From positions 310,001 to 374,000 of the forward strand of contig AP019755.1 of assembly GCA_006742785.1 (NCBI GenBank): DNA of 64,000 nucleotides, in the 5' to 3' direction. Position 1 is the first letter of the stretch. Each line of letters opens with the position of its first letter. The notes beneath the pieces were generated by a model. That model was not told where the DNA came from, made no database searches, and worked only from the letters and a program-made list of their open reading frames with translations. The stretch is from Nitrosomonas stercoris. GTDB taxonomy: Bacteria; Pseudomonadota; Gammaproteobacteria; Burkholderiales; Nitrosomonadaceae. Shown in pieces: positions 27,912 through 42,874 of the stretch. The translations under genes were made by a program, and so were the position numbers.

Positions 27912-28072
27912 CAAAACAACATGCATCCTTCACCACATTAAAAACAATCACACCAACAAACCAGACTCCGTTAGAATTATCAGAGCAATACACACCTACA
28001 CTGAAATTTTGTATACTGCAGCGGCAAAATTTTTGTACAACCAAATTCCTCCTTTCGAAGAAAAATTTCTAA

Positions 28073-28921
28073 GAGCCTGTTTACGATCTTCTGAGTAATA
28101 GTGCCAAGAAAGCCAAATGAATGAGCTGCAAGCTGGTATCAAGTTTACGTTCGCAGTTTTTCCATAATCTTCGGCACTTTTCCAGCCAGGCGAAACTACG
28201 TTCCACTATCCAGCGCCTGGGCATAACCTTGAAGGTATGCAGTTTGCTGCGTTTGGCGATCTGCACGGTGACAGGTTTGCCCAGAATTTCTTGCACACTT
28301 TCGGCAAATGGTGCTCCAGTATAGCCACCGTCACACAGCAAACCTTGCACTTGTCCCAAACTCGATCTGCAACGCTTCAAGGCCTGCAATGCACCGTTAC
28401 GGTCAGTCACTTCCGCTGTCGTCACTGCAATGGCGTGCGGCAACCCCAAGGTATCAACAGCGATATGGCGCTTGATGCCCGACACCTTCTTGCCGGCGTC
28501 ATAGCCTTTCTGGTCAGCCGTGTCTGTATTCTTCACGCTTTGCGCGTCCACAATCAAGAACGTGCTGCAAGCGTTGCGCCCCAGTTTCTCTCGGGCCGCG
28601 CCAACCTGATTTTTTTAATGCCTGCTCCAGCACGCTCACGCCGTGCTGGTCAGGCTCATTCCATTTGCGCCAATAGGCATATACACTCTGCCATTTGGGA
28701 AACTCTCCGGGCAAAAATCTCCACTGGCAACCAGTACGCAGCAGATACAGCACAGCACAAAATACTTCATACAAATCTATTGTCGTGGGTTTGGTGCTGC
28801 GCCTCACGCTACGCAATAGCGGCTCTATCTCGGCAAACTTCTCTTTGCTAATATCACCGGCATATTTTGTTCTCTTCATCCACGTATCGTAAGGAATAAT
28901 GATGAGATCGTAAACAGGCTC
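28073..28921 (-). mobile_element. IS5-family insertion sequence (ISL2/IS1031-like), 849 bp
   Basis: Perfect 17-bp terminal inverted repeats GAGCCTGTTTACGATCT at both ends, flanked by a 3-bp direct repeat TAA (28070-28072 and 28922-28924), as expected for the TNA target of this IS5 subgroup. It contains one transposase in two overlapping frames. It marks the left border of the accessory island. Confidence 0.92.
28081..28879 (-). CDS. IS5-family transposase in two frames (frameshifted)
   Basis: The upstream frame (28514-28879) begins MKRTKYAGDISKEKFAEI and carries the N-terminal part. The downstream frame (28081-28557 and a little upstream) carries STFLIVDAQSVKNTD with the first catalytic Asp, LLCDGGYTG with the second, and the final Glu in RWIVERSFAWLEKCRRL. 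The frames are linked at an A7 run (about 28610-28616) where the plus-one frame opens to QVGAAREKLGRN. This fits programmed frameshifting or transcriptional slippage rather than random damage, because both parts are otherwise intact. Confidence 0.85.
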
Positions 28922-28990
28922 TAAGATGTTTAGTCCCACGATGTGCTGGGATGGGTTAACGATAAAACGATCTGGCTCGTCTGCTTCGAC

Positions 28991-30487
28991 TCAAGATGTA
29001 CGGTAGGAAATCAGCGCTGCCGCCAGTACGATCAGCATCGACGTTGCGGAAATGAATTGTATACTGGCGGTAAATGCATGCCGTGAGGCAGTAAGCAACT
29101 CGATCTTTGCGGGCTCCAGTAATTTGTCAGCGACGGCAACCGCCGCGCTCAGTGAACCATTTGCATATGCGAGAGCATCTTCGGGCACGCCTGATAATGA
29201 TTCGGGAGAAAATTCCATGCGATAGATCAGGCTAGCGAGGCTACCCAACAGAGCGATGCCCAGCGCACCACTGAGTTCGGAGCCTGTCTCGGACAATGCT
29301 GCCGCAGCCCCTGCCCTCTCTGAAGGGACTTGGGCGATGATTAGCTCGACGCTGAAAGTGAACAGCGGTGCCAGCCCCAGCGCCAGCATCACTGTCCCGG
29401 TAATAATTACTTCCTTGTCAGACGAACCACCTACTTGCGTCAACAGGGCAAATCCCAATGCCGACAACAACAGGCCACAGGTGGTGATGCGGTTGGGATG
29501 CCAATAGCGTGCGACGCGCGGTGCCGTGGCGGAGCCAATCATGAAAGCGCCCCCCCAGGGTGCAAGCCAGCAGGCGGCCTTGAATGGCGAAAGATCGAGC
29601 ACTAGTTGCAGATACTGGGTCAGAAGGATTGAGAGTCCGAACAACACAAAGAAGCCGAATGCGTAGCTGAGCATGGCCGCGGAAAAACCAGGCCTACTGA
29701 ACAGCTGCAGATCCACCATGGGATAGGCCAGTCGCGTCTGACGATGCAGAAATACTCCGGCTAGCGCCACACCAACGACCAGCGACAAAACAGGCGACCA
29801 ACTCAGGCCTTGTCCTGCCCCTTCTTTCATACCGTACACAACAGCCAATACGGCGCCTAGCGATAACAGTACGCTACACAGGTCGACACGGCCCGGGGCC
29901 GGATCGCGATATTCAGGCAGCAGCCAGGGACCCAGTGCCAACAACAGCAACATTGCAGGTACGGAGATGAGAAATACCGAGCTCCAATGAAAATGCGTAA
30001 TCAGTATCCCGCCCAACAAGGGGCCGATCACTGCTCCGGCCGAGAAGCTAGCCATCCAGATGCCGATAGCTGTCGTCCGTTCGTTCTTGTTGTGAAACAT
30101 GTTGCGAATCAGTGAGAGAGTGGACGGCGCCAACGTTGCGCCGGCCACTCCGAGCAAGGCGCGAAGAAGAATCAAGGCGCCGGCACTTTTGACTAGTGCA
30201 GCGAGGATCGAGACGATGCCAAAAGCCGCTGCACCAATCAGCAACAGTCGCCGTCGCCCGATGCGGTCGCCGATAGTACCCATGGTGATCAGGAAGCCGG
30301 CAACCATGAAGCCATAGATATCCACCATCCATAGCATCTGTGCGTTAGTGGCGTGCAGCGTTGCACTGATGGTCGGTAGTGCCAAGGTCATGATCGTCAG
30401 ATCCATGGAGTACAGCAGACATGGCAGGGCGATCACTGCTAAGCCGATCCATTCGCGCCGCGTGGCCTTGGCCGCTATGCTGGACAC
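28991..30487 (-). CDS. MFS exporter, DHA2 (QacA/SmvA-like) family
   Basis: A 498-residue permease with about 14 predicted membrane helices. Motif A-like sequence is GTIGDRIGRRRLLLIGA, and motif C-like is GIWMASFSAGAVIGPLLGG. The N-terminus LPCLLYSMDLTIMTLALPTI is typical of DHA2 drug/H+ antiporters. It is the last gene of the receptor-methyltransferase-synthase-ligase operon, 166 bases after the ligase gene. Inference: it exports the small molecule made by the upstream enzymes. G+C content is higher than in the glycogen genes to the left. Confidence 0.88.
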   Translation of the reverse strand: MSSIAAKATRREWIGLAVIALPCLLYSMDLTIMTLALPTISATLHATNAQMLWMVDIYGFMVAGFLITMGTIGDRIGRRRLLLIGAAAFGIVSILAALVKSAGALILLRALLGVAGATLAPSTLSLIRNMFHNKNERTTAIGIWMASFSAGAVIGPLLGGILITHFHWSSVFLISVPAMLLLLALGPWLLPEYRDPAPGRVDLCSVLLSLGAVLAVVYGMKEGAGQGLSWSPVLSLVVGVALAGVFLHRQTRLAYPMVDLQLFSRPGFSAAMLSYAFGFFVLFGLSILLTQYLQLVLDLSPFKAACWLAPWGGAFMIGSATAPRVARYWHPNRITTCGLLLSALGFALLTQVGGSSDKEVIITGTVMLALGLAPLFTFSVELIIAQVPSERAGAAAALSETGSELSGALGIALLGSLASLIYRMEFSPESLSGVPEDALAYANGSLSAAVAVADKLLEPAKIELLTASRHAFTASIQFISATSMLIVLAAALISYRTS

Positions 30488-30502
30488 GGGATTGCCAGCC
30501 TA

Positions 30503-30537
30503 GGCGGCCACCTCTGGTAAAGTTGGGCCGCCAGAGG
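30503..30537 (-). other. Overlapping inverted repeats before the exporter gene
   Basis: Arm 1 GGCGGCC (30503-30509) pairs with GGCCGCC (30526-30532). Arm 2 CCTCTGG (30511-30517) pairs with CCAGAGG (30531-30537). The arms interleave, so in RNA they form either a pseudoknot or two mutually exclusive stems. It ends 16 bases upstream of the exporter start. No T-run follows, so translational control is likelier than termination. Confidence 0.45.
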
Positions 30538-30653
30538 CTCAGCCTCGACCAGCCGTCGGTGCCGTAATCCACATAGGGGTAACGTAGACATCAGATCGAG
30601 CCAGCTTTTCTGGGTGCCTCCATTTATGCTAAATTGAGCGGTATTTATCACTG

Positions 30654-32468
30654 TTATGCCGGCGGGTCTTTGGGACTTAGGTAAGACGAGTGGCGGCGAG
30701 CGATGACATCCATACCGTGCAAGCGGTAGAAGATGTCATAGCCGCGGCTCCTCCGCTCGCGCCAAGCTCGTCGGAGATAGGCCATGTCAAACAGTCCAAG
30801 CTTATCAAGGCCGCTATCCGGCTCTAGCGAACTCTCCATCCGCGCCTCAAACTCGGGCGATGCATATACCATCTGCGGCACTGGAAAACCGATCTTCTTT
30901 CGGCTCGAGATTGTGCTAGGGAGCCAGGGCGACATCGCCTGCTTGAAGATCCATTTTTCCGAATCCTCATAGTGCTTGAGCCTCGGTAGAAAGGAAAACG
31001 CACTTTGAATGACCTGCTGGTCGGCTAGTGGGATTCTGACTTCAATGCTGTGCGCCATGCTGGCCATGTCTATCTGACGATATTCGGAGACCACGCACTC
31101 GCCGTGATAATCGAGCAGGCAGGTGAGCTGTTGGCTGTCCTGCGTATCATGCGCGTACAGATCGAGATAGGGCTGCACGGCGGAAATGAAGGCGGCACGG
31201 GCATCGACCTCAAGCATTAGTTGCCCGAGGTCGATATCCCCCACCGCATTGAAATAATCGAAATAGGCACCCGCCACCAGCCTCGAGGGGATGGTTTTCA
31301 GCCTGTGTCCATGACTGTAACCATCGAATACCTCGTCCGGCCCGCTGCCACAAAACGCCACGCGATGACCGTCGGCGGCGATTTGCTCAAGCAGCAGGAA
31401 CAGACAGACTGCCTCGGGTGCACCGTTCGGTTCGCAGCATAGCGACCACCAGCGGTCCATGGCTTCGCAATAGATCTGGCTCGTCACCTCGATTTCCCGG
31501 TGCTCCGTGCCGAAGGCCTCGGCCACCAGCCGAGAGTAGCTGAACTCGTTATGCATGATGGCAGCTGCCCTCAACCCAGATTCGGGAAAACCGATAGCAT
31601 AGGTGTGCAGTTCCAAGCCCTGTCTCCTAGCTCGGGCTACCACGCTGGACGAATCAATGCCACCGCTTAATAAATAGGCATACGGAATTTCCAGGTCGAA
31701 ACAGCGTGTGCAGCCTGCAGCCACTGCGTCCCGAATACGTTCGGTGATTGCGGTGACATCCTGTTGCAATTCATCACCGATGACGATCTTGTGATAGCGC
31801 CGATGACGCGGGCGTTCACCCTGTTCGACGACCAGGCAACATCCAGCCTCAAGCTTCTTGATCTCGCGGATATGAGTATGGGGGCCAAATACGAACATGA
31901 TGCCCGCGGCCTGGGCCAAACCTTCGCGATCCCAGCTGAAGTTGAGATGAGGGATACGCAAAATGGTCTCAATATCCGAGGCAAAATACAGTTCGTCCCC
32001 GGCTCCAAGCGTGTAGTACAGTGGCTTTTGCCCCGTTGGATCCACAGCCAGCAGCGTTCGTCTGGCCGACCGATCGTGCAGACAGAAGGCAAACATGCCC
32101 TCGAGCATGCTTAGCATGTCCAGGCCATGACGTTGGTAGATGGCGAGCAGGCTCTCGGCATCCGATTTGGTACGGAAGTGATAGTCCGGACACAAGCGCC
32201 GCAGATCGAGATGATTGTAGATTTCGCCGTTGAAGGTCAGGGTCAGCATACCGTCGGCACTTTGCATTGGCATGTCTGCCTCAGAATTACGCATATCGGT
32301 CACGCGCAGACGAGTATTGCCCAGTACGACCCGTTCATCCGCGACCACCGTGCCTTGGCTGTCTGGCCCGCGCCGTTGCATGGCATCGGTTTGCACCATG
32401 TCCTCGACTACCCTAATGCGCAAGGTCGCTGGGGTCTCGCGCCCAACGAACCCAGCGATTCCGCTCAT
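30654..32468 (-). CDS. Asparagine-synthetase-like amide ligase lacking the glutaminase Cys
   Basis: A 604-residue protein with N-terminal class II glutamine amidotransferase fold (1-210) and C-terminal ATP-dependent ligase domain with PP-loop LLSGGIDSSSV (267-276). The start MSGIAGFVG replaces the invariant Cys after Met with Ser (codon AGC), while RRGPDS, FNGEIYN and KSDAE of the glutaminase site remain. The ATG is one base after the synthase stop (TGA-G-ATG), so they are coupled. Loss of this Cys is known in beta-lactam and carbapenam synthetases, which adenylate a carboxylate and use an amine. By analogy it may form an amide or ring in the metallophore. True asparagine synthesis from ammonia is the alternative. 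Confidence 0.85.
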   Translation of the reverse strand: MSGIAGFVGRETPATLRIRVVEDMVQTDAMQRRGPDSQGTVVADERVVLGNTRLRVTDMRNSEADMPMQSADGMLTLTFNGEIYNHLDLRRLCPDYHFRTKSDAESLLAIYQRHGLDMLSMLEGMFAFCLHDRSARRTLLAVDPTGQKPLYYTLGAGDELYFASDIETILRIPHLNFSWDREGLAQAAGIMFVFGPHTHIREIKKLEAGCCLVVEQGERPRHRRYHKIVIGDELQQDVTAITERIRDAVAAGCTRCFDLEIPYAYLLSGGIDSSSVVARARRQGLELHTYAIGFPESGLRAAAIMHNEFSYSRLVAEAFGTEHREIEVTSQIYCEAMDRWWSLCCEPNGAPEAVCLFLLLEQIAADGHRVAFCGSGPDEVFDGYSHGHRLKTIPSRLVAGAYFDYFNAVGDIDLGQLMLEVDARAAFISAVQPYLDLYAHDTQDSQQLTCLLDYHGECVVSEYRQIDMASMAHSIEVRIPLADQQVIQSAFSFLPRLKHYEDSEKWIFKQAMSPWLPSTISSRKKIGFPVPQMVYASPEFEARMESSLEPDSGLDKLGLFDMAYLRRAWRERRSRGYDIFYRLHGMDVIARRHSSYLSPKDPPA

Positions 32469-32469
32469 C

Positions 32470-34413
32470 TCAAGCCCCCAGTGTCGCAGAGGTTGCAACG
32501 GTGGCGTGCTCTGCCTCGGGTGTCTCATAATCCTCGAACAGCGCGGGACGCATCTGCTCGATCCAGCTCAGATACAGTTCCACTCGATCACAGACGATGA
32601 TTACAGCGCTCTTGCGCTCTGTCTGCTTGGCATCAATAGCTCGCAGGTAGCGCAGTGCAGCTAGATAGGTGGCGCCACTGGAAGGGCCTGCCATCACTCC
32701 ATAGTCACGGATTAGGGCGAGCATACCATCAAGTGCCTCGCTCGCCGTGATGCCAACTAACTGATCATACTTTTGTTCCTCAAAGGGGCCGACGTAGAAC
32801 ATCTCATCCATGTGACGGATGCCGGGAATGGCGCTGTCCTTGGTCGAAACGATACCGGACACTTTCAATTTCTCGTTCGCTTCTCGAAGGCGCCGGCCGA
32901 TACCGATACTGGAACCCGCAGTGCCGACTGGTGCAAAAAAGTAGTCGACCGGCCCGAGATCCTCCAGGATCTCCTGCGCCGTGGTGGCGTAGTGGGTGCA
33001 GTCATTGTTGGGATTGCGGTATTGATCGGTATAGAGATAACGATCGCGCTGCTCGTATGCGCGCGCATCGACGTACAGCAAGGCTGCCATGGCATCGGTG
33101 GGGTCGACGTCTCCCGCCATCGGTGAAACCTTGGCGCCCTGTACTACCAGCATGCGGCGCATCTCCTGAATACGGATACGGTTGGTAATGGTCTCAAGGG
33201 CGCTGCCATAGATAGATGCCACTGCCTGAAGTGCACGCGCTGCATTGCCGCTCGATAGCTCCAACAACTGCTTGTTACTGGACTGCAGAGTACCCAAGTG
33301 CGGGCGTAGCATTGCCCATGCCGTCCGATCCTTGATCGAGCCAAACGGGTTGAGGTGCTCGAGCTTGGCATACAAGTCGATATTCGTCAGGCTAGTCTTG
33401 GCTGGATTCAATTTCAAGATCGGCGTATTACCGATCAGATCGGTGATCGAATCGACCACCAGTCGTTTCCTGCTAGTGGCCATCTTGGCTGGCTCGTCAT
33501 CGGCACGACGGATGGTCTCTGTCGATTCGGTAGCTTCCGATTGACTCAGCAGGCTGAATATCAGCGAGATCAGGGAGAGGCCTGGTCGTTTCTCTGTCTG
33601 ATATCGGAACCTGAAACCATGTTCGCACACACGATTGGGATCAATCATGTCATTGATAATGAAACCCAAGCTATTACGGGGCGCGCTGCGGAATATGAAG
33701 TACTGGATATTGGTGAACTTCCGCAGATGGCGTAACAAAGGTTGCTTGTCGGCGATCCAGTTCGACACGAATACCAAGTCGCAATCACTGAAATCGTACT
33801 TACTGCCATCGACACAAATCACACGGACCAGATGGTCCAACCCCACCTTGGCAATCAACTCCGTGGCAAAGGCGGCGGATCTGGTGTGAGGATCCAACAC
33901 CACGACCTGATAGCCGAGTCGCTGCGCCAACAGCATGGCCGGAAGCGGCAGCGCGCCACCGCCTATGTAGCCGATGCGACAGCATTGAGTGGCAGCGGAC
34001 GGATAAGTAGATTCAGTACAGGAGCGCAGCTGACCTTCTCGTTCGAGCCAGGTCAGCTCGTCCTCCATCAGGCCCTGATAGATCTGTCCATGGTAGGCGC
34101 GATAGATCTTGCCGAAGGTCAGGTTAGATTCCCCTAATAAATTTTCTGCAATCCGACATTCTTCGAGAACACCGGCGTCGCAGGAGATAGGAAAGACGTC
34201 GCGGGCTAGAGCAAGAACGTCCGCATCAGCGGCGATCACGCTCGCGTCGCTAACCGACACGTCGGAGCTAGCGATGGAGTACAACTTGTAGCGGGCTTGA
34301 TGAAACTGCGCATTCTCCGGGCCACAAGCACCGAATGCGAGTATGCGTTCTCCAGCTTCCAGGATGTGCCGTTTCAGATCGACGATGCTGTCAGATAGAT
34401 AAATGTTTTTCAT
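32470..34413 (-). CDS. Fusion of nicotianamine-synthase-like and cysteine-synthase/SbnA-like domains
   Basis: A 647-residue two-domain protein. Residues about 1-290 resemble nicotianamine synthase/CntL: SAM motif IGYIGGGALPLPAMLLAQ (147-163), acidic VVLDPH, CDLVFVSNWI, and a closing FIFRSAPRNSLGF segment that parallels the RSAHGxRxFLYP block of the family. After a linker, residues 320-640 are a fold II PLP enzyme: LIGNTPILKL, PLP Lys361 in NPFGSIKDR, LSSGNAA, GTAGSSIGIGRR. The PLP half is closest in style to enzymes joining O-phospho- or O-acetylserine to an amino acid (SbnA, EDDS or aspergillomarasmine type). Inferred role: build an aminopropionate link and add aminobutyrate from SAM. Confidence 0.8.
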   Translation of the reverse strand: MKNIYLSDSIVDLKRHILEAGERILAFGACGPENAQFHQARYKLYSIASSDVSVSDASVIAADADVLALARDVFPISCDAGVLEECRIAENLLGESNLTFGKIYRAYHGQIYQGLMEDELTWLEREGQLRSCTESTYPSAATQCCRIGYIGGGALPLPAMLLAQRLGYQVVVLDPHTRSAAFATELIAKVGLDHLVRVICVDGSKYDFSDCDLVFVSNWIADKQPLLRHLRKFTNIQYFIFRSAPRNSLGFIINDMIDPNRVCEHGFRFRYQTEKRPGLSLISLIFSLLSQSEATESTETIRRADDEPAKMATSRKRLVVDSITDLIGNTPILKLNPAKTSLTNIDLYAKLEHLNPFGSIKDRTAWAMLRPHLGTLQSSNKQLLELSSGNAARALQAVASIYGSALETITNRIRIQEMRRMLVVQGAKVSPMAGDVDPTDAMAALLYVDARAYEQRDRYLYTDQYRNPNNDCTHYATTAQEILEDLGPVDYFFAPVGTAGSSIGIGRRLREANEKLKVSGIVSTKDSAIPGIRHMDEMFYVGPFEEQKYDQLVGITASEALDGMLALIRDYGVMAGPSSGATYLAALRYLRAIDAKQTERKSAVIIVCDRVELYLSWIEQMRPALFEDYETPEAEHATVATSATLGA

Positions 34414-34498
34414 AGTCGGAAACTCTCTAATCTTGTTTAAGATGATGGGAGTGAAAATGGCACAAGAAGGTGGTCACTAAAGACCTCCGCAGTCTCTT

Positions 34499-35176
34499 TC
34501 ATCGTACCTTCTCACAGCGGAAGGCATAGTTGTGGACATACTCCGCGTCGACATGGTTAATAACCTTCTGGTACCATGCGCTCGGTTTTGAGAGCGAGGT
34601 GTAGCCCTTGGGCACGATGCGCTTGATGCTGGTCTTGAAGCCGACCCCGATGAAGGCATCAGCGATATCATCCAAGGTGTGCTCCTTGACCTTGATGGCG
34701 GCGAAGCGATTGATTGCCGTTCGCAGTTCGGTACCAGCGTCGTCGTTCATGTAGTCCGGGTGTGTAGCGAAATAGATACCACCAGGCTTCAGTACTCGGT
34801 ATATCTGTTGAGCATGGTCTCTCAGATCTTCTATCAGATAGATCACCGCCGTGCTGATGGCGATATCGAACCGATTCTCAAAATCGGCCATAGTGTCGGT
34901 GGCAATGTATTCGATCGGGCGATCACCACATCTCGAACGGGCGACTTCGATCGAACTGCGGGCTAAATCGACGCCAACGGCCTGGCGGAATTTGTGTTCG
35001 TCGTACAGCTTGCGCAGGAATCCACCTTGGTTGCAACCAAAATCCAGCAGGATTTTGTCCGTAAGGCTGACATCAAAGGTCTGCGAGGCAACTCGCTCCC
35101 AGAACTCACCATGCTCGTCCTCCATCGACTGGTCACCAGCATCGGGTTCGGTCCACCACTGTTCAATCATTTTCAT
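34499..35176 (-). CDS. Class I SAM-dependent methyltransferase
   Basis: A 225-residue methyltransferase with motif I LLDFGCNQGGFLRKL, the acidic loop VGVDLARSSIEVAR, motif IV FDIAISTAVIYLIEDL and post-motif VLKPGGIYFATHPDYM. It lies between the receptor and the fusion synthase on the same strand (85-base gap downstream) and is probably a tailoring enzyme for the same product. It could instead be a small-molecule resistance methylase. The substrate cannot be predicted. Confidence 0.82.
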   Translation of the reverse strand: MKMIEQWWTEPDAGDQSMEDEHGEFWERVASQTFDVSLTDKILLDFGCNQGGFLRKLYDEHKFRQAVGVDLARSSIEVARSRCGDRPIEYIATDTMADFENRFDIAISTAVIYLIEDLRDHAQQIYRVLKPGGIYFATHPDYMNDDAGTELRTAINRFAAIKVKEHTLDDIADAFIGVGFKTSIKRIVPKGYTSLSKPSAWYQKVINHVDAEYVHNYAFRCEKVR

Positions 35177-35348
35177 GAGTTATGCCTCCTTTGGCAGTTT
35201 TTTGTGTACTCACCTGCTGTACTAAAATCCGAATCAAGGGATCGACTTTGATTGAATCCACCATGCTATTTGCACCACGAGATGAATGTGGAAGCAGAGC
35301 GATGCTGGTTTCATTCAGATCGTAATCGAGTAAACACCAGCATCCGAC

Positions 35349-37649
35349 TCATAAGCGGTAAGATAGCGTTAGTAAAAATGTGCGCGGTGGATTGGGGATT
35401 AGGGTGTAGTTGTAGACACCACTCGCGCCGCCGTAGTAGTACTTGGTGTCGAACAGATTGTTGACGTTAAATTGGGCACGCCAGTTACCAGTGTCGTAGT
35501 AGGCGGTGGTATCCATGCGTACGTAGGCCCCCAGTTTGTGGGAATTCGGCAGAGTTGCCTGGCGCGATGAGGCAGCATAGATGCCACCGCCCACACCGAG
35601 GCCTTGCAGAACACCACCGGGTTCGTAGGTCGTCCACAGATTGCCGCTGTGCCGAGGGACATCGGGCAGCTTATCGCCGACCGGGAAGAAGCCATCCGCT
35701 TTCACTTCGGCGTGGGTATAGGCATAGCTGGCAATTACCTTCCAGCGCCGTGTCAACTCACCACTGACATCAAGTTCGAAGCCGTGGCTAGATTGACGTC
35801 CTGCAAGGATGTTTCGTAGAGGGTCGTTCGGATCGCTGGTAAGAATGTGACGACGGGTTAGCTTGTAGGCTGCTAGCGTAGCGTTCAGTCGCCGGTCAAA
35901 AAAGTTAAATTTGGCACCAATTTCTTTCTGGGTACCCACTTCGGCGTCAAATACGCTGGCATCGATACTGCGTGTAATATTTGGCGAGTGCGACCGACCC
36001 ACACGGGTGAACAACGCGGCTGTCGGATTTAATTCCCACACCGCACCGACCTGCCAAGACAGCGCCATCTGGTTCGCGCTATTCGTATAATCACTGCTCT
36101 TGGCTTCGTTATGGAAACGATCCAGTCGAAGACCAGCTAACAACTTCACCGCAGATGTCAGTGTCAATAGGTCCTGTGCATAAATTCCAATATCGTCTCC
36201 CCGGCCCTCGTTATAACCTTCACCAGGAATGATGGGCTCGTGATGAGCAGAGCGCATGCCAGGATCAAACAGGTCGAGGACAAAACTCGTTTGGTCGGTA
36301 TTGTTAAACCCGTTTACGATCTTTCTGTATTCCGTGCCGAATAGCAAGTTATGCTCAAAGCTCCAAGTATGGACCTGTCCGCGCAACTCAGCTTGCACGG
36401 CGTGTCCGCGGGACCACTCATGGCCATTCATGTAATGGGTGAAGTGTAGCTTATTGTCGCCAGTGTACAGGTAGTTGTCAGGAAAGGACTGGGTCGAATC
36501 CTGAGTGGCTCTGTGGTACTGTGTGGCGATCCGAAGGCCCCAGGTCTGGCTCAGCTGGTGATGGAGGATAGCAGTACCCACGTAAGTCTCGTTGAGTCCG
36601 CTATCGCCTGGAAGGTCAGGGTAGTCCCCTTTGCGCAGCCCGAAGTAACGGGTACGAGAGAGGTGACGGAAGTTCGGCAGATTAGGCAGGCCGAAGTCGA
36701 ATAGATCCTGGTCGAGGCGATTGTATTCCGCTAATAATGTGACACTGGTCCTTTCCCCTTGCCAAGATATTGCCGGGGCTAGGGAATATGATTCGAATCC
36801 GCTACCATCACGAAAGGTACCGTTGTTCTCGTACGCACCGTTCAATCTCACGGAAAAACCTTTACCCAGGACGCGGTTGATGTCAAAGGTCGGTCGCCAT
36901 TGCTGGTAATTCCCCCACAGCAGATTGATTGCACCATAATTGTAGTAGAGCGGTCGTTTTGAAACCGTGTTAACCTGGCCACCTAGCGAACCAACGCCGC
37001 CATAGAGCGTACCGGATGGCCCTTTCATCACCTCGATCCGTTCGATGTTCTGCACATCGCGAGTAACCAGGTTGCCGTTGTATTGAAATCCATCGCGACT
37101 GCTGCTGTGGGTCGTGAAGCCGCGTATATTGAAGAACATTCCGCGATTCCCACCGTAGCTGGCTTCGGTCTGCACGCCGCTGACGTTTTCTAGCAGTTGG
37201 CCGGGCTGGGTCACTGCGCGGTCGCGCAACACTTCATGCGGTACCACCTGGATTGAGACGGGGATGTCGCTCAGAGACAGATCCGTCCTGGTGAGACTGT
37301 CGGCACGGTTAGTAGTGTAGCCACTCAATTCGGGAGAAGCAGGGGCGCCAGTGACTGTCATCGCCGGCAACTGCGTGACAGGCCCTGTGGGTACTGCCAC
37401 TTCTACATCACGAGCTATCTGCCCAGCATCCTCTCCCTCGGAACCATCTGCAATCTCCTGTCCTTGCATCATAGAATCGGATTTCATCTTTACGCCCTGC
37501 GCCAGATACACCCGCCCTGATTCTAAAGCAGACGTTTCTCTCACACCCTGTTCCTCTTTCACTACGCGGTTTTCTTCAGCCCCAAACAGTGGATTGCTTA
37601 GAGTTGTCCCTAAAAGTATCCACAATAAGGTGATAGAGGATTCTTCCAT
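35349..37649 (-). CDS. TonB-dependent siderophore-type receptor
   Basis: A 766-residue outer-membrane receptor. A signal peptide (about 1-23, ending LFGAEE) and a linker of about 75 residues precede the plug: LPAMTVTGAPA, SDIPVSIQVVPHEVLRD, VSGVQTEASYGG, FFNIRGF, VQNIERIEVMKGPSGTLYGG, GGQVNTVSKRP. This plug follows the FpvA/FhuE siderophore subclass. The barrel ends NPPRTFLLTLSYRL. No FecI/FecR pair is adjacent and no signalling domain is visible. It is first in the five-gene operon and most likely imports the metal-loaded product of that operon. Confidence 0.92.
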   Translation of the reverse strand: MEESSITLLWILLGTTLSNPLFGAEENRVVKEEQGVRETSALESGRVYLAQGVKMKSDSMMQGQEIADGSEGEDAGQIARDVEVAVPTGPVTQLPAMTVTGAPASPELSGYTTNRADSLTRTDLSLSDIPVSIQVVPHEVLRDRAVTQPGQLLENVSGVQTEASYGGNRGMFFNIRGFTTHSSSRDGFQYNGNLVTRDVQNIERIEVMKGPSGTLYGGVGSLGGQVNTVSKRPLYYNYGAINLLWGNYQQWRPTFDINRVLGKGFSVRLNGAYENNGTFRDGSGFESYSLAPAISWQGERTSVTLLAEYNRLDQDLFDFGLPNLPNFRHLSRTRYFGLRKGDYPDLPGDSGLNETYVGTAILHHQLSQTWGLRIATQYHRATQDSTQSFPDNYLYTGDNKLHFTHYMNGHEWSRGHAVQAELRGQVHTWSFEHNLLFGTEYRKIVNGFNNTDQTSFVLDLFDPGMRSAHHEPIIPGEGYNEGRGDDIGIYAQDLLTLTSAVKLLAGLRLDRFHNEAKSSDYTNSANQMALSWQVGAVWELNPTAALFTRVGRSHSPNITRSIDASVFDAEVGTQKEIGAKFNFFDRRLNATLAAYKLTRRHILTSDPNDPLRNILAGRQSSHGFELDVSGELTRRWKVIASYAYTHAEVKADGFFPVGDKLPDVPRHSGNLWTTYEPGGVLQGLGVGGGIYAASSRQATLPNSHKLGAYVRMDTTAYYDTGNWRAQFNVNNLFDTKYYYGGASGVYNYTLIPNPPRTFLLTLSYRL

Positions 37650-37791
37650 TCTTTTTTCTCCTGATCGTTTTGTCCGGCTGGGTACTCACTCGGTCGAATT
37701 CGGCCTGGATTCTAAAATCCGCTTTCGTCGTGATGTTGGCGATCAAGTTGAGCACAACGTCGCGACTAACATTCATAATTGATATTGGCGA

Positions 37792-37809
37792 TATACAGCT
37801 AGCTGTATA
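37792..37809. promoter_or_regulatory. Perfect 18-bp palindrome upstream of the receptor gene
   Basis: TATACAGCTAGCTGTATA is fully self-complementary and lies about 143 bases upstream of the receptor start. It is a good candidate repressor site overlapping the promoter of the metallophore operon. It does not match Fur or Zur boxes. Confidence 0.55.
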
Positions 37810-37852
37810 CTCAATGTGGAGAAGTTATACAGAACAAAAGCAGAATTTGGAA

Positions 37853-37869
37853 TGTGACATAACGTCGCA
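37853..37869. promoter_or_regulatory. 17-bp dyad operator candidate upstream of the receptor gene
   Basis: TGTGACATAACGTCGCA, matching TGYGACA-N3-TGTCRCA with one mismatch, 204 bases upstream of the receptor start. Same pattern as at copC (10148) and mbtH (42969). Confidence 0.5.
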
Positions 37870-37879
37870 CCCGATTCAA

Positions 37880-38525
37880 TCCGAGCCCGCAAGCTGATTT
37901 TGCCAGTTTGTCCGGTGTATCAGCCAGAACAGCTTGAGGATTGAACAAGATCACTATCACCAGACGAACAGCCATGCTGGATCTCATATGATCATGACGC
38001 GGGTGTTCACAATGGGGCGTTCTGCTGAGGATGGTTGTCGATCGTTCAAAAGCTGCCTTCCAGCGTCAGATAAAGAGTGATGTGAGGTATAGCAACAGCT
38101 TGCATGCAAATGAAGCCAGTAAATCAGGGCGTGGGATCAGTAGTCCAGCCGGCGGTTGTGGCGAGGGGTACGGGCAGCATCTGTTTGACAGTTGAAGCGG
38201 AGACAAGGTTACCACCGCCGTGTCGATGGCAGGAATCGCTCCTTCCAGATAACAACCAGTAGAATCTCCAATAAGCTGCATCTGATTTTGAGCCTGTGCC
38301 AGATCGGTAGCACCAACCGGTACCGTCAATCCCCGTTCAAACCAGCCTCGCACCAGGCTGGCAATGGTGCTGCAACCTGGGCGAACCATTGATCCGGAAT
38401 GGGCAAATCAATGTTGCTGAGCTCGCGCGGCGGTGTGTGGTGCAATCATGAACAACAACAACAGACATGACACGGATAACCTGCCACAACTGCTTATGAC
38501 AGCCCAACACGTTCTACTCATCACA
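37880..38525 (-). pseudogene. Remnant of a small secreted protein gene
   Basis: On the minus strand a signal-peptide-like stretch (SCLLLLFMIAPHTAARAQQH, near 38460) is followed in frame by a stop, and then by an open frame at 38066-38389 (VRGWFERGLTVPVGATDLAQAQNQM and on). The two pieces read as one exported protein with a nonsense codon. I do not recognise the family. It directly follows the broken PepSY gene on the same strand, so both may belong to a decayed receptor-associated operon. Below 38066 nothing is recognisable down to the operator sites. Confidence 0.35.
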
Positions 38526-39083
38526 CTACGGCAGACGAGGCGTTGACGAATTCAGATAAGACAATTCCTGTTGACGACTACTCACACTTAAACGGGCCCG
38601 CCGCTTTTTCAGCTAGATAATAATGCCTGTCACCGAAAACAGGGCAATGACCAAACCCAGCACACAGACAAAAATCCGATAAGGCAGCCCAAACACATTG
38701 GCCATGTGCAGGGCTTTGAGCCAGGTGGTTACAGTATTGCCACTGTACTGGCCGCTTGGCAACAATGCCGGTTTAAGCTCACCCGAACTGGCATCGAAAT
38801 ATATGCTCGTTTCTCCCCGCTTATCCTGTATCTCTTTTGAGCTGTGCACGGTGTAAACATACACTTCATTCATACGATTCAATGCCAAGGCAACCACCCG
38901 TTCAACCGCGAAATCATGTTGATCTGCCTGTTCAGCCATTAATTTCTCAGCGATGGATTGTTCTCGCCAGCTGATATTGGGCACGGCCAGCGGAACCTCT
39001 CGTTTTTCCAGTTCAGTCCAAGGGGCCTTGAATTCAAACACTGCACGCGTCGTCCAAGTATAAACCGTATCCCACATATTCAT
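38526..39083 (-). pseudogene. Truncated PepSY-type membrane protein with amber codon
   Basis: The frame encodes the C-terminal part of a PepSY-associated TM protein (siderophore/iron-reduction type): FDASSGELKPALLPSG, TWLKALHMANVFGLPYRIFVCVLGLVIALFSVTGIII. At 38613-38615 a TAG stands where family members have Trp (GIIIW), and the frame then continues 29 codons as LKKRRARLSVSSRQQE to a TAG at 38526. The N-terminal half (first helix and periplasmic part) is missing; an in-frame TAA lies directly before the first ATG. So it is both truncated and interrupted. Confidence 0.75.
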
Positions 39084-40577: not shown

Positions 40578-41603
40578 TTAATATGCCCTGCCAGTAACAA
40601 ACAACGTTGCTTCTGCCAGTCCATAGCAGGGGAAAAAAGCTGTCTTACGAAAACCACAAGAGGAAAACACATCCGCGAATCGATTCAGGGTAGTAGAACG
40701 TACCGGTTCGGATCCGTTAAAAGCCAAATTCCAGCAGCTCAAATCGATCGTATTGATTTGTTCGGGCGTAATTTTCCGGGCACAAAGCTCGTAGGCAAAA
40801 TTAGGCCCGCCAGAGGTAGTAGCGCGGTATTTTGAGATCGTGTTCAACCATCGGATCGGCTTTTCCAGAAATGCCATCGGTGACATGAGGATCGCCGGTA
40901 CGCCCAGATAAAGCGGCTGCAGAATGTTACCGATCAGACCCATGTCATGGTAGAACGGCAACCATCCCACTACAACTGTATCATCTGAATGTTTAAACGC
41001 TGCCTGAATCGCACGTTGATTAGCCATCAGATTCCCATGGCTTACCATTACCCCTTTTGGGGTTCCAGTAGACCCTGATGTATATTGTAAGAATGCAAGG
41101 CTATCCGGCTTTAGCAGGTAAGCTTTCCAGCCAGGTGTAGCATTCCCACTCAGCTGCTGATCAGTCACCAGCCAGTCAAAACAGTTTTGTCCCCAGTTTT
41201 CCTGGCCATTCCCCTGTAACTTTGATTGCCACTCGGTAGTGGTCAGTATGATAGTGGGTGTGGCATCGTGAATGATAGCCTCAAGCCGTCGCAGATGATG
41301 GCGGGATGGTGGATAAACAGGGACTGCAATGAGTTCTGCGTACAGACAAGCAAAAAATGCAACGATGTAATCGAGACCAGATGGATAAAGTAGTAACGCA
41401 CGTTCACCTGCTTTATGAGTGGCTTGCAGGTATCCCGCAATCATTCTTGCTCTGGAATCCAACTCTTTGTACGTTATTGATTGCTCCTGATGCTCACCAT
41501 CCATTAAAAACACGTAAGCACAAGCATCTGGCATCTGATCTACTCGATGCCGCAAGAGCGTGACCAGATTCTCGTCAGTACAGGCGGAACGCAGCATTTT
41601 CAC
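40578..41603 (-). pseudogene. Fatty-acyl-AMP ligase, 3' truncated
   Basis: 341 codons of a FAAL/acyl-CoA-synthetase-type adenylation domain: AMP-binding core YTSGSTGTPKGVMVSHGNL, GWLPFYHDMGLIG, LAFNGSEPVR and FPCYGLAEATLFVTG. It stops at TGRAY, where the family continues with the remaining roughly 200 residues and often an NRPS. The lost part includes the catalytic Lys subdomain, so it is inactive. Its start overlaps the phosphopantetheinyl transferase gene. This looks like the 5' stub of a lipopeptide-siderophore synthetase removed by deletion near 40577. Confidence 0.85.
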
Positions 41604-42393
41604 TATGATTTCTCTCTTCTAAATACCTTGTGGCTACCTCAATAACGTCAGTCTGCTCAGGCCATGTTTTAAACATAATCAATGCAGGAGCGCCGCCTAT
41701 GACCAGTGCTGATTCATACCCCGGGAATACGCTAAAGGAATACAACCGAAAATGACCCTCTGTGTGCAGGCGGTATTCAGTATTTATTCGGAAGTTACTG
41801 ACAACAGGTCCAAAAGGCACCTCAATCTGTTTCAAAGGAAAAAACAATCCTGTACCTCTGGCTTTTACATAAGCCTCCTTTCGCGTCCAGCCCCGTAGAA
41901 GTGCCACTGTTTTCTGGTCAACAGGGAAAGTATCGAATATCGCCTGTTCACGATCTGAAAAGATCAGGCTGGCAATTGACTCCGCAGCACAATCGAAATG
42001 CAGCGCTTCGATATCAATCCCTATTTCACATTCCCGGGATACCGCATATAGCGCAGTCGAACCACTATGTGACAGGTTAAATGTGAGCTGTGTATCTGGT
42101 TTGATTACTTCAGGTTTACCGCCAGGACCGTAACCAAACCTGATTTCATGAGGATGCACATCCAGATAATCTGCTAACAAAAACCTTAAAATTCCACGTG
42201 CAACAATAAAGCGTTGTCGATCCGTGACAAACTGATAACGAAGGGCACGACACTGTTCATCCTGTGATAAAACTTTATAAAAATCTCCAGACTGATATGC
42301 ATGCGCATCCAAATCTACCTTCCACACCTGCACTATACGTCTTGGCAGGATATTTTCGGTATTTGTCTCGTTACACATCAGCGCTTGCATCAT
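41575..42393 (-). CDS. 4'-phosphopantetheinyl transferase, Sfp type
   Basis: A 272-residue intact enzyme with LTFNLSHSGS, IGIDIEAL (Mg ligands) and WTRKEAYVKARGTGL. It would load phosphopantetheine on carrier domains of NRPS/PKS proteins. It overlaps the thioesterase remnant upstream and the FAAL stub downstream, all minus strand. It is one of two undamaged genes left in this relic and may be kept because it serves carriers elsewhere in the genome. Confidence 0.9.
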   Translation of the reverse strand: MMQALMCNETNTENILPRRIVQVWKVDLDAHAYQSGDFYKVLSQDEQCRALRYQFVTDRQRFIVARGILRFLLADYLDVHPHEIRFGYGPGGKPEVIKPDTQLTFNLSHSGSTALYAVSRECEIGIDIEALHFDCAAESIASLIFSDREQAIFDTFPVDQKTVALLRGWTRKEAYVKARGTGLFFPLKQIEVPFGPVVSNFRINTEYRLHTEGHFRLYSFSVFPGYESALVIGGAPALIMFKTWPEQTDVIEVATRYLEERNHSENAAFRLY

Positions 42394-42617
42394 GCGGCTT
42401 TATGAATAAAAGGATGAAACCGAGAACAATATGATTTGAACAAAGAAAAATCAGCTCTGATATCGATCGTTCCAGGAAAGCACTTTGCCCATGTCGGATA
42501 TATCGAAGCACTGCCACCTGCGTACGGTAAACAGAAAAGGTGCGATCTTACTGACGGCTTAATACGCACTCTTGGAAACCAGGAGGAAACGTCATTATCC
42601 ATTTGAGTCTTGGTCAT
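42390..42617 (-). pseudogene. Type II thioesterase, internally deleted
   Basis: 75 codons. The first 50 match the N-terminus of an NRPS-associated thioesterase (SHLFCLPYAGGSASIYPTWAKCFPGTIDIRA), then the sequence leaves the family. The end (HPFIHKAA) could be the last few residues of the same gene. About 170 residues, including the GxSxG Ser and catalytic His, are absent. The stop overlaps the phosphopantetheinyl transferase ATG. Confidence 0.75.
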
Positions 42618-42640
42618 CTTTAACCAGGTAAACCATGGAA

Positions 42641-42874
42641 TTATTGGGGGTTGATTTGAGATTTTGTCTCAGCCATTTGCTTACGGAGACTCAGTGGGCG
42701 CATATCCGTCCATACTTCCTCAATATAGGCAAGACAATCATCTTTCTTCCCGGATTTGCCTACGGAACGCCACCCACCGGGTATTTCCTTGTATTCAGGC
42801 CATATTGAATATTGTTCTTCGTGATTCATAACCACATGGTAAGTCGTCGTATCTTCTTCATCATTCCAAGCCAC
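42641..42874 (-). CDS. MbtH-like protein
   Basis: A 77-residue MbtH family member with the expected [42 protein letters not shown] core: paired Trp, SxWP and TDMRP. MbtH proteins activate NRPS adenylation domains. It is the first gene of the relic siderophore cluster (mbtH, thioesterase remnant, phosphopantetheinyl transferase, FAAL stub). No full NRPS is in the window for it to assist. Confidence 0.92.

Follow-up and report, generated by a model that had tools for sequence, protein, structure and literature searches.

Gene Organization and Mobility of the Operon

The stretch of DNA analysed here, called the window, comprises 64,000 nucleotides of the Nitrosomonas stercoris contig AP019755.1 (positions 310,001 to 374,000) and carries a compact operon of five minus-strand genes, which is read as a probable metallophore system. 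In the direction of transcription, the genes encode a TonB-dependent siderophore-type receptor of 766 amino acids (35349-37649; TIGR01783), a class I S-adenosylmethionine (SAM) methyltransferase of 225 (34499-35176; Methyltransf_11, E=1e-15), a fusion of a nicotianamine synthase (NAS)-like and a CysK-like domain of 647 (32470-34413), an AsnB-type amide synthetase of 604 (30654-32468; TIGR01536) and a DHA2-family exporter of the major facilitator superfamily (MFS) of 498 (28991-30487; MFS_1, E=1.2e-44). An earlier note, made from the letters alone, had described five minus-strand reading frames at these places, and all of them are intact and backed in their families by Pfam and NCBIfam. The intergenic gaps, from receptor to exporter, are 172, 85, 1 and 166 bases. 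The tight coupling of synthase and ligase in that note is exact, as position 32469 alone lies between the TGA of the fusion gene and the ligase start at 32468; the listed start at 32528 would overlap the fusion gene.

The operon lies within a mobile high-GC block (28975-37958, no strand assigned), delimited by homology and by composition. By BLAST against the other loci, the homology to two further copies (L111 and L113) starts at 28975 and stops at 37958-38082, with non-homologous flanks on both sides, and the block has a GC content of 0.545 against 0.445 in the rest of the window, no 9-kb window elsewhere exceeding 0.482. The same five-gene block occurs in four of 61 Nitrosomonas genomes (G000, G001, G021 and G036, the last matching the N. 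eutropha Nm24 record), at non-homologous chromosomal sites and often near insertion sequence (IS) elements. In all four copies the five reading frames are open, and dN/dS values of 0.04-0.23 across the genes denote purifying selection. Because the block recurs at unrelated sites with intact frames and low dN/dS, the five-gene set is, beyond chance, a mobile unit under selection. The earlier note had tied its pathway to co-occurrence of these genes in other genomes, and they do move as one unit among the four carriers; the set was not found outside these genomes in the sets searched, and neither a tblastn search of the N-terminal half of the fusion against plasmids and phages nor scans of viral contigs gave a match. 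The copies differ in detail, with only 16 bases between the receptor and methyltransferase genes in G021. At the left edge of the window copy lies an IS5-type element on the minus strand (28063-28931; DUF4096 transposase), bounded by terminal inverted repeats of 27 nt, and a related element adjoins the block at L113.

The NAS-like Half of the Fusion Protein

The N-terminal half of the fusion protein (residues 1-311; 33480-34413, minus strand) is a divergent NAS homologue rather than a Pfam NAS member, a wording chosen because the Pfam NAS cut-off is not reached. Among 177,635 PDB sequences searched with phmmer, its top match is the thermonicotianamine synthase MtNAS (PDB 3FPE; E=2.3e-4), and in a scan of 369 genomes from the same class the strongest hit other than itself (L025, E=9.6e-5), one of six weak matches, is a bona fide NAS (PF03059, E=2.5e-49). 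Moreover, hhalign against a profile of four NAS/CntL proteins gives a probability of 97.2% (E=3.1e-11), while the operon methyltransferase, used as a control, fails against both NAS (0.35%) and the N-terminal half (0.08%). On these three lines the NAS-like character proposed in the earlier note holds. The SAM-binding motif IGGGALPL (residues 150-157) aligns with IGGGPLPL of MtNAS, so that GGGxLPL is kept. Regarding the active site, Glu81 and Tyr107 are the catalytic residues of MtNAS (PMC10491745); in a MAFFT alignment, their tentative counterparts are E85, which falls in the column of the catalytic glutamate, and, for the tyrosine, Y107 or Y112 according to gap placement. Among solved structures MtNAS is the closest by sequence and by fold ranking, sharing the GGGxLPL motif, but it is a stand-alone protein of only about 20% identity.

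The earlier note had also proposed a structural comparison. AlphaFold predicts a helical N-terminal domain followed by a Rossmann C-terminal domain, with pLDDT values of only 37 and 47, and confidence stays low even when a distant NAS is added; Foldseek ranks MtNAS first both times, although models of such low confidence lend this little weight. The azetidine-2-carboxylate synthases AzeJ and VioH, considered as another identity, are absent from the PDB sequence matches and from the 50 best fold matches listed. Scanning 299 Pseudomonadota with PF03059 returned CheR-type methyltransferases only, and weak matches of the N-terminal half in the order scan were rejected as relatives, being PurE-like or flavoprotein sequences. 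No other fusion of NAS with a pyridoxal phosphate (PLP) enzyme was found in the sets searched.

The PLP-Dependent Half and Its Clade

The C-terminal half (residues 312-647; 32470-33477, minus strand) is a β-replacement domain that scores 181 bits against PALP (cut-off 35, E=3.8e-53), with the PLP lysine in the motif NPFGSIKDR, invariant in the alignment. The earlier note had likened it to SbnA, an identity that is not upheld, since the CysM/CysK models (cysKM) score 167 bits against 145 for SbnA (TIGR03945), whose cut-off is 349.95. By these scores it is a CysM-like PLP enzyme and not of the SbnA family. It shares fold-type II and the cysteine synthase superfamily with the PLP enzymes of the SbnA, EDDS and aspergillomarasmine pathways, by analogy to which C-N bond formation with an activated serine may be expected; unlike them, it falls far under the SbnA cut-off and within a LysA-linked CysK clade. 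The genome also encodes, apart from the operon, a housekeeping CysM-type enzyme and an AsnB that matches its family more strongly than the operon ligase does; therefore, the operon enzymes are not the housekeeping ones.

The relatives in this clade, at 42-50% identity, group with the C-terminal half and are separate from housekeeping CysK/CysM (branch support 100/100, with long joining branches) and are found in Streptomyces, Nocardia and scattered metagenome-assembled genomes of other phyla. A LysA-like decarboxylase adjoins them in 81/81 loci, unlike in the window operon, which has none among its genes. Further neighbours in these 81 loci are class V aminotransferases (79), Fur-family genes (18; present in 11 of the 21 genera or groups) and CobW (17), while no NAS domain like that of the window was detected there. 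This metal link of the clade supports a metallophore role by analogy, without proving it.

Proposed Pathway

In the whole genome, no NRPS (nonribosomal peptide synthetase) condensation domain and no IucA/IucC enzyme, the synthetase of NRPS-independent siderophore (NIS) pathways, was found, which leaves the operon as its sole siderophore-like biosynthetic locus among the classes tested. Together with the NAS-like half, the mobility of the unit and the siderophore-type receptor, this makes the metallophore proposed in the earlier note the best reading: that this horizontally mobile operon works as a self-contained metallophore system is considered fairly probable.

From the chemistry of the families, we infer each catalytic step, their order, the product and the metal as follows. 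The PLP half would couple an amino acid, through its amine, with an activated serine (O-acetyl- or O-phosphoserine) to yield a unit of the 2,3-diaminopropionate type. From SAM, the NAS half would contribute a 3-amino-3-carboxypropyl (aminobutyrate) group, the acceptor being an amine of that product or of its precursor. The AsnB-type enzyme could then convert a carboxylate into an amide with ammonia. In its window copy, Ser replaces the first Cys, the nucleophile of the glutaminase site; such a loss may be tolerable because free ammonia is available to an ammonia oxidiser and could stand in for glutamine. The methyltransferase would N- or O-methylate the product, the MFS protein would export the polyaminocarboxylate and the TonB receptor would take the metal complex back up, most likely in ferric form. 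Iron is the favoured metal because of the type of receptor and the gene neighbourhood.

Several points weigh against this reading. PF03059 gives the N-terminal half 12.2 bits, under the gathering cut-off of 27.1, and no close relative of that half was found outside Nitrosomonas, so the conservation of its residues lacks depth. No Fur or Zur box stands above chance upstream of the operon, and an inner-membrane importer is missing among its five genes. In addition, the exporter resembles drug pumps, and the receptor possibly belonged to a decayed NRPS siderophore system.

The most specific form of the metallophore reading is held only tentatively, as a possibility rather than an expectation: one polypeptide would form two successive C-N bonds, with SAM in the NAS half and with activated serine in the PLP half, to build an aminobutyrate/diaminopropionate backbone that an ammonia-driven ligase amidates, thus defining a new NRPS-free and NIS-free metallophore class in a five-gene cassette spreading among ammonia oxidisers.

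Receptor and Exporter

The receptor passes the siderophore-receptor model TIGR01783 with 316.9 bits (cut-off 223.5), and its nearest solved structures are FetA, for enantio-pyochelin, and receptors of the PiuA, FhuA and FoxA types. The best models of the exporter are QepA, LfrA and SmvA, all under their cut-offs. As QepA and LfrA are drug pumps, the product of these enzymes could instead be an antimetabolite, an antibiotic or a sideromycin-like compound that is exported, with self-protection as the task of the QepA-like pump and the receptor being incidental or taking up a conjugate. AsnB-type and PLP enzymes are also found in antibiotic pathways, and the block is both mobile and rare, as such an explanation would have it. 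However, all four copies retain the siderophore-type receptor, on which purifying selection acts (dN/dS 0.14-0.23), and NAS enzymes of known product yield metallophores or nicotianamine (PMC10248798, PMC10491745), so that an antimetabolite is judged unlikely.

The Neighbouring NRPS Remnants

Outside the mobile block, the minus strand at 40578-42874 holds remnants of an NRPS siderophore locus, namely a truncated AMP-ligase, an Sfp-type phosphopantetheinyl transferase, a thioesterase fragment and MbtH. The absence of NRPS reported in the earlier note is thus right for the operon, and for the genome as regards condensation domains, but these remnants lie in the vicinity. These remnants give some ground for the view that the receptor served a decayed NRPS siderophore, and that the other four genes, whose product would be either a building block or some unrelated metabolite, were inserted beside it. 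The receptor of G021 (L112:10279-12660) fits this as well, with an N-terminus unlike that of the other three copies, an STN-like signalling domain and a position directly downstream of an NRPS adenylation-peptidyl carrier protein fragment. Nevertheless, the receptor has moved together with the other four genes between unrelated sites, its GC3 of 0.59 is like that of the operon (0.59-0.66) and not like the 0.39 and 0.46 of the two remnant genes tested, and no NRPS is left to consume a building block; a separate origin is accordingly distinctly unlikely, and a metallophore system that includes its receptor is preferred.

Nearer the receptor and upstream of it, at 38613-39083 on the minus strand, lies a truncated PepSY_TM (FoxB/FpvG-like) remnant that matches only positions 239-291 of 295 of the model, the protein being intact at L111 and L113. 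In G001, the block adjoins a complete-looking NIS siderophore cluster (L144, L111:212-4846) with two IucA/IucC enzymes, an MFS protein, a PLP decarboxylase, a TonB receptor and a PepSY-like protein. This setting, like the NRPS fragment that precedes the block in G021, also counts in favour of the metallophore reading. A perfect 18-bp palindrome, TATACAGCTAGCTGTATA, occurs upstream of the receptor at 37792-37809; it was rejected as a regulon site, being single in the genome and missing from the other three copies.

The AsnB-Type Ligase

The ligase has the Asn_synthase and GATase domains of Pfam and passes TIGR01536 with 310.5 bits (cut-off 267.1), thus sharing the glutamine amidotransferase and ATP-PPi synthetase architecture of AsnB and N-acetylglutaminylglutamine amide synthetase. 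It was described as Cys-less in the earlier note, which is true of the window, L111 and L113 copies, starting ATG AGC (Ser), but not of the G021 copy (L112), which starts GTG TGC (Met-Cys). As β-lactam synthetase and CarA are Cys-less and are among the PDB matches of the ligase, and Cys1 is Ser in three of the four copies, the enzyme could close a lactam ring, as β-lactam and carbapenam synthetases do, instead of adding ammonia, giving a cyclic metallophore. However, the PDB matches favour AsnB (E=7e-34) over β-lactam synthetase (E=8e-15). The position of E. coli AsnB Glu348, occupied by the catalytic Tyr348 in β-lactam synthetase, is Ser in the four operon copies and Gln in two aligned relatives. 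Moreover, the window copy keeps the glutamine-pocket motifs NGE and SD, while the G021 copy, which retains Cys1, has NGK where the other three have NGE.

An inherently Cys-less, ring-closing ligase is therefore not borne out, the retained Cys of G021 and the Ser at the Glu348 position both speaking against it, and a cyclic product is considered quite improbable. The simplest reading of these residues is an amide synthetase with a recently weakened glutaminase, differing from AsnB in having Ser at both the Cys1 and Glu348 positions; amidation is thus the more likely reaction, with ring closure possible. Decay of the whole cassette into an acquisition without present function, to which the surrounding IS elements and gene remnants and the lost Cys1 could point, is very improbable given five open frames in all four copies and a dN/dS of 0.04-0.23 in every gene.

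Relation to Known Metallophore Systems

Within the preferred metallophore reading, the nearest known systems are the cnt loci for staphylopine, pseudopaline, yersinopine and bacillopaline, which resemble the operon in having an MFS exporter, a NAS-like enzyme for aminobutyrate transfer and no NRPS, and in Gram-negative bacteria also a TonB receptor (PMC7438024). Unlike them, the operon has no histidine racemase and, among the Pfam/NCBIfam families of its five genes, no CntM-type opine dehydrogenase; it has instead the NAS-fused PLP β-replacement domain, the AsnB-type ligase and the methyltransferase. Since NAS-dependent metallophores are known, the bacterial ones described using an opine dehydrogenase (PMC7438024, PMC10491745), and no paper on a NAS-PLP fusion was found in the open-access literature searched, the operon adds a variant to these systems.

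Nitrosomonas europaea has been reported to lack siderophore production despite its high iron demand (PMC3050691). If the reading is true, some of its relatives can make their own metallophore from a compact, movable cassette, in which a single enzyme, the fusion, unites two of the reactions that build metallophores. Searching with the fusion would also give access to a class of pathway missed by genome mining for NRPS and NIS enzymes.

Other Metal-Linked Loci

A 2.05-Mb Gammaproteobacterium carries a true NAS gene (L154:2626-12243) with a divergent MFS exporter, a Fur-like gene, Opp/Nik-type ABC genes, a CobW GTPase and a ZIP-like transporter, the names other than NAS resting on reading of the sequence; it looks like a zincophore locus. 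In addition, a LysA-like decarboxylase, CysK and a class V aminotransferase (SufS) form a widespread module (L022, L023, L032-L110), often accompanied by a Fur-family regulator, a CobW GTPase or ribosomal protein S18. It occurs in Actinomycetota, Obscuribacterales, Bacilli, Patescibacteria and others and is probably zinc- or iron-linked; its Fur and CobW neighbours suggest that many phyla have another metal-linked pathway yet to be described. In one of these loci (L061), Pfam reveals a rhodanese domain on the CysK.

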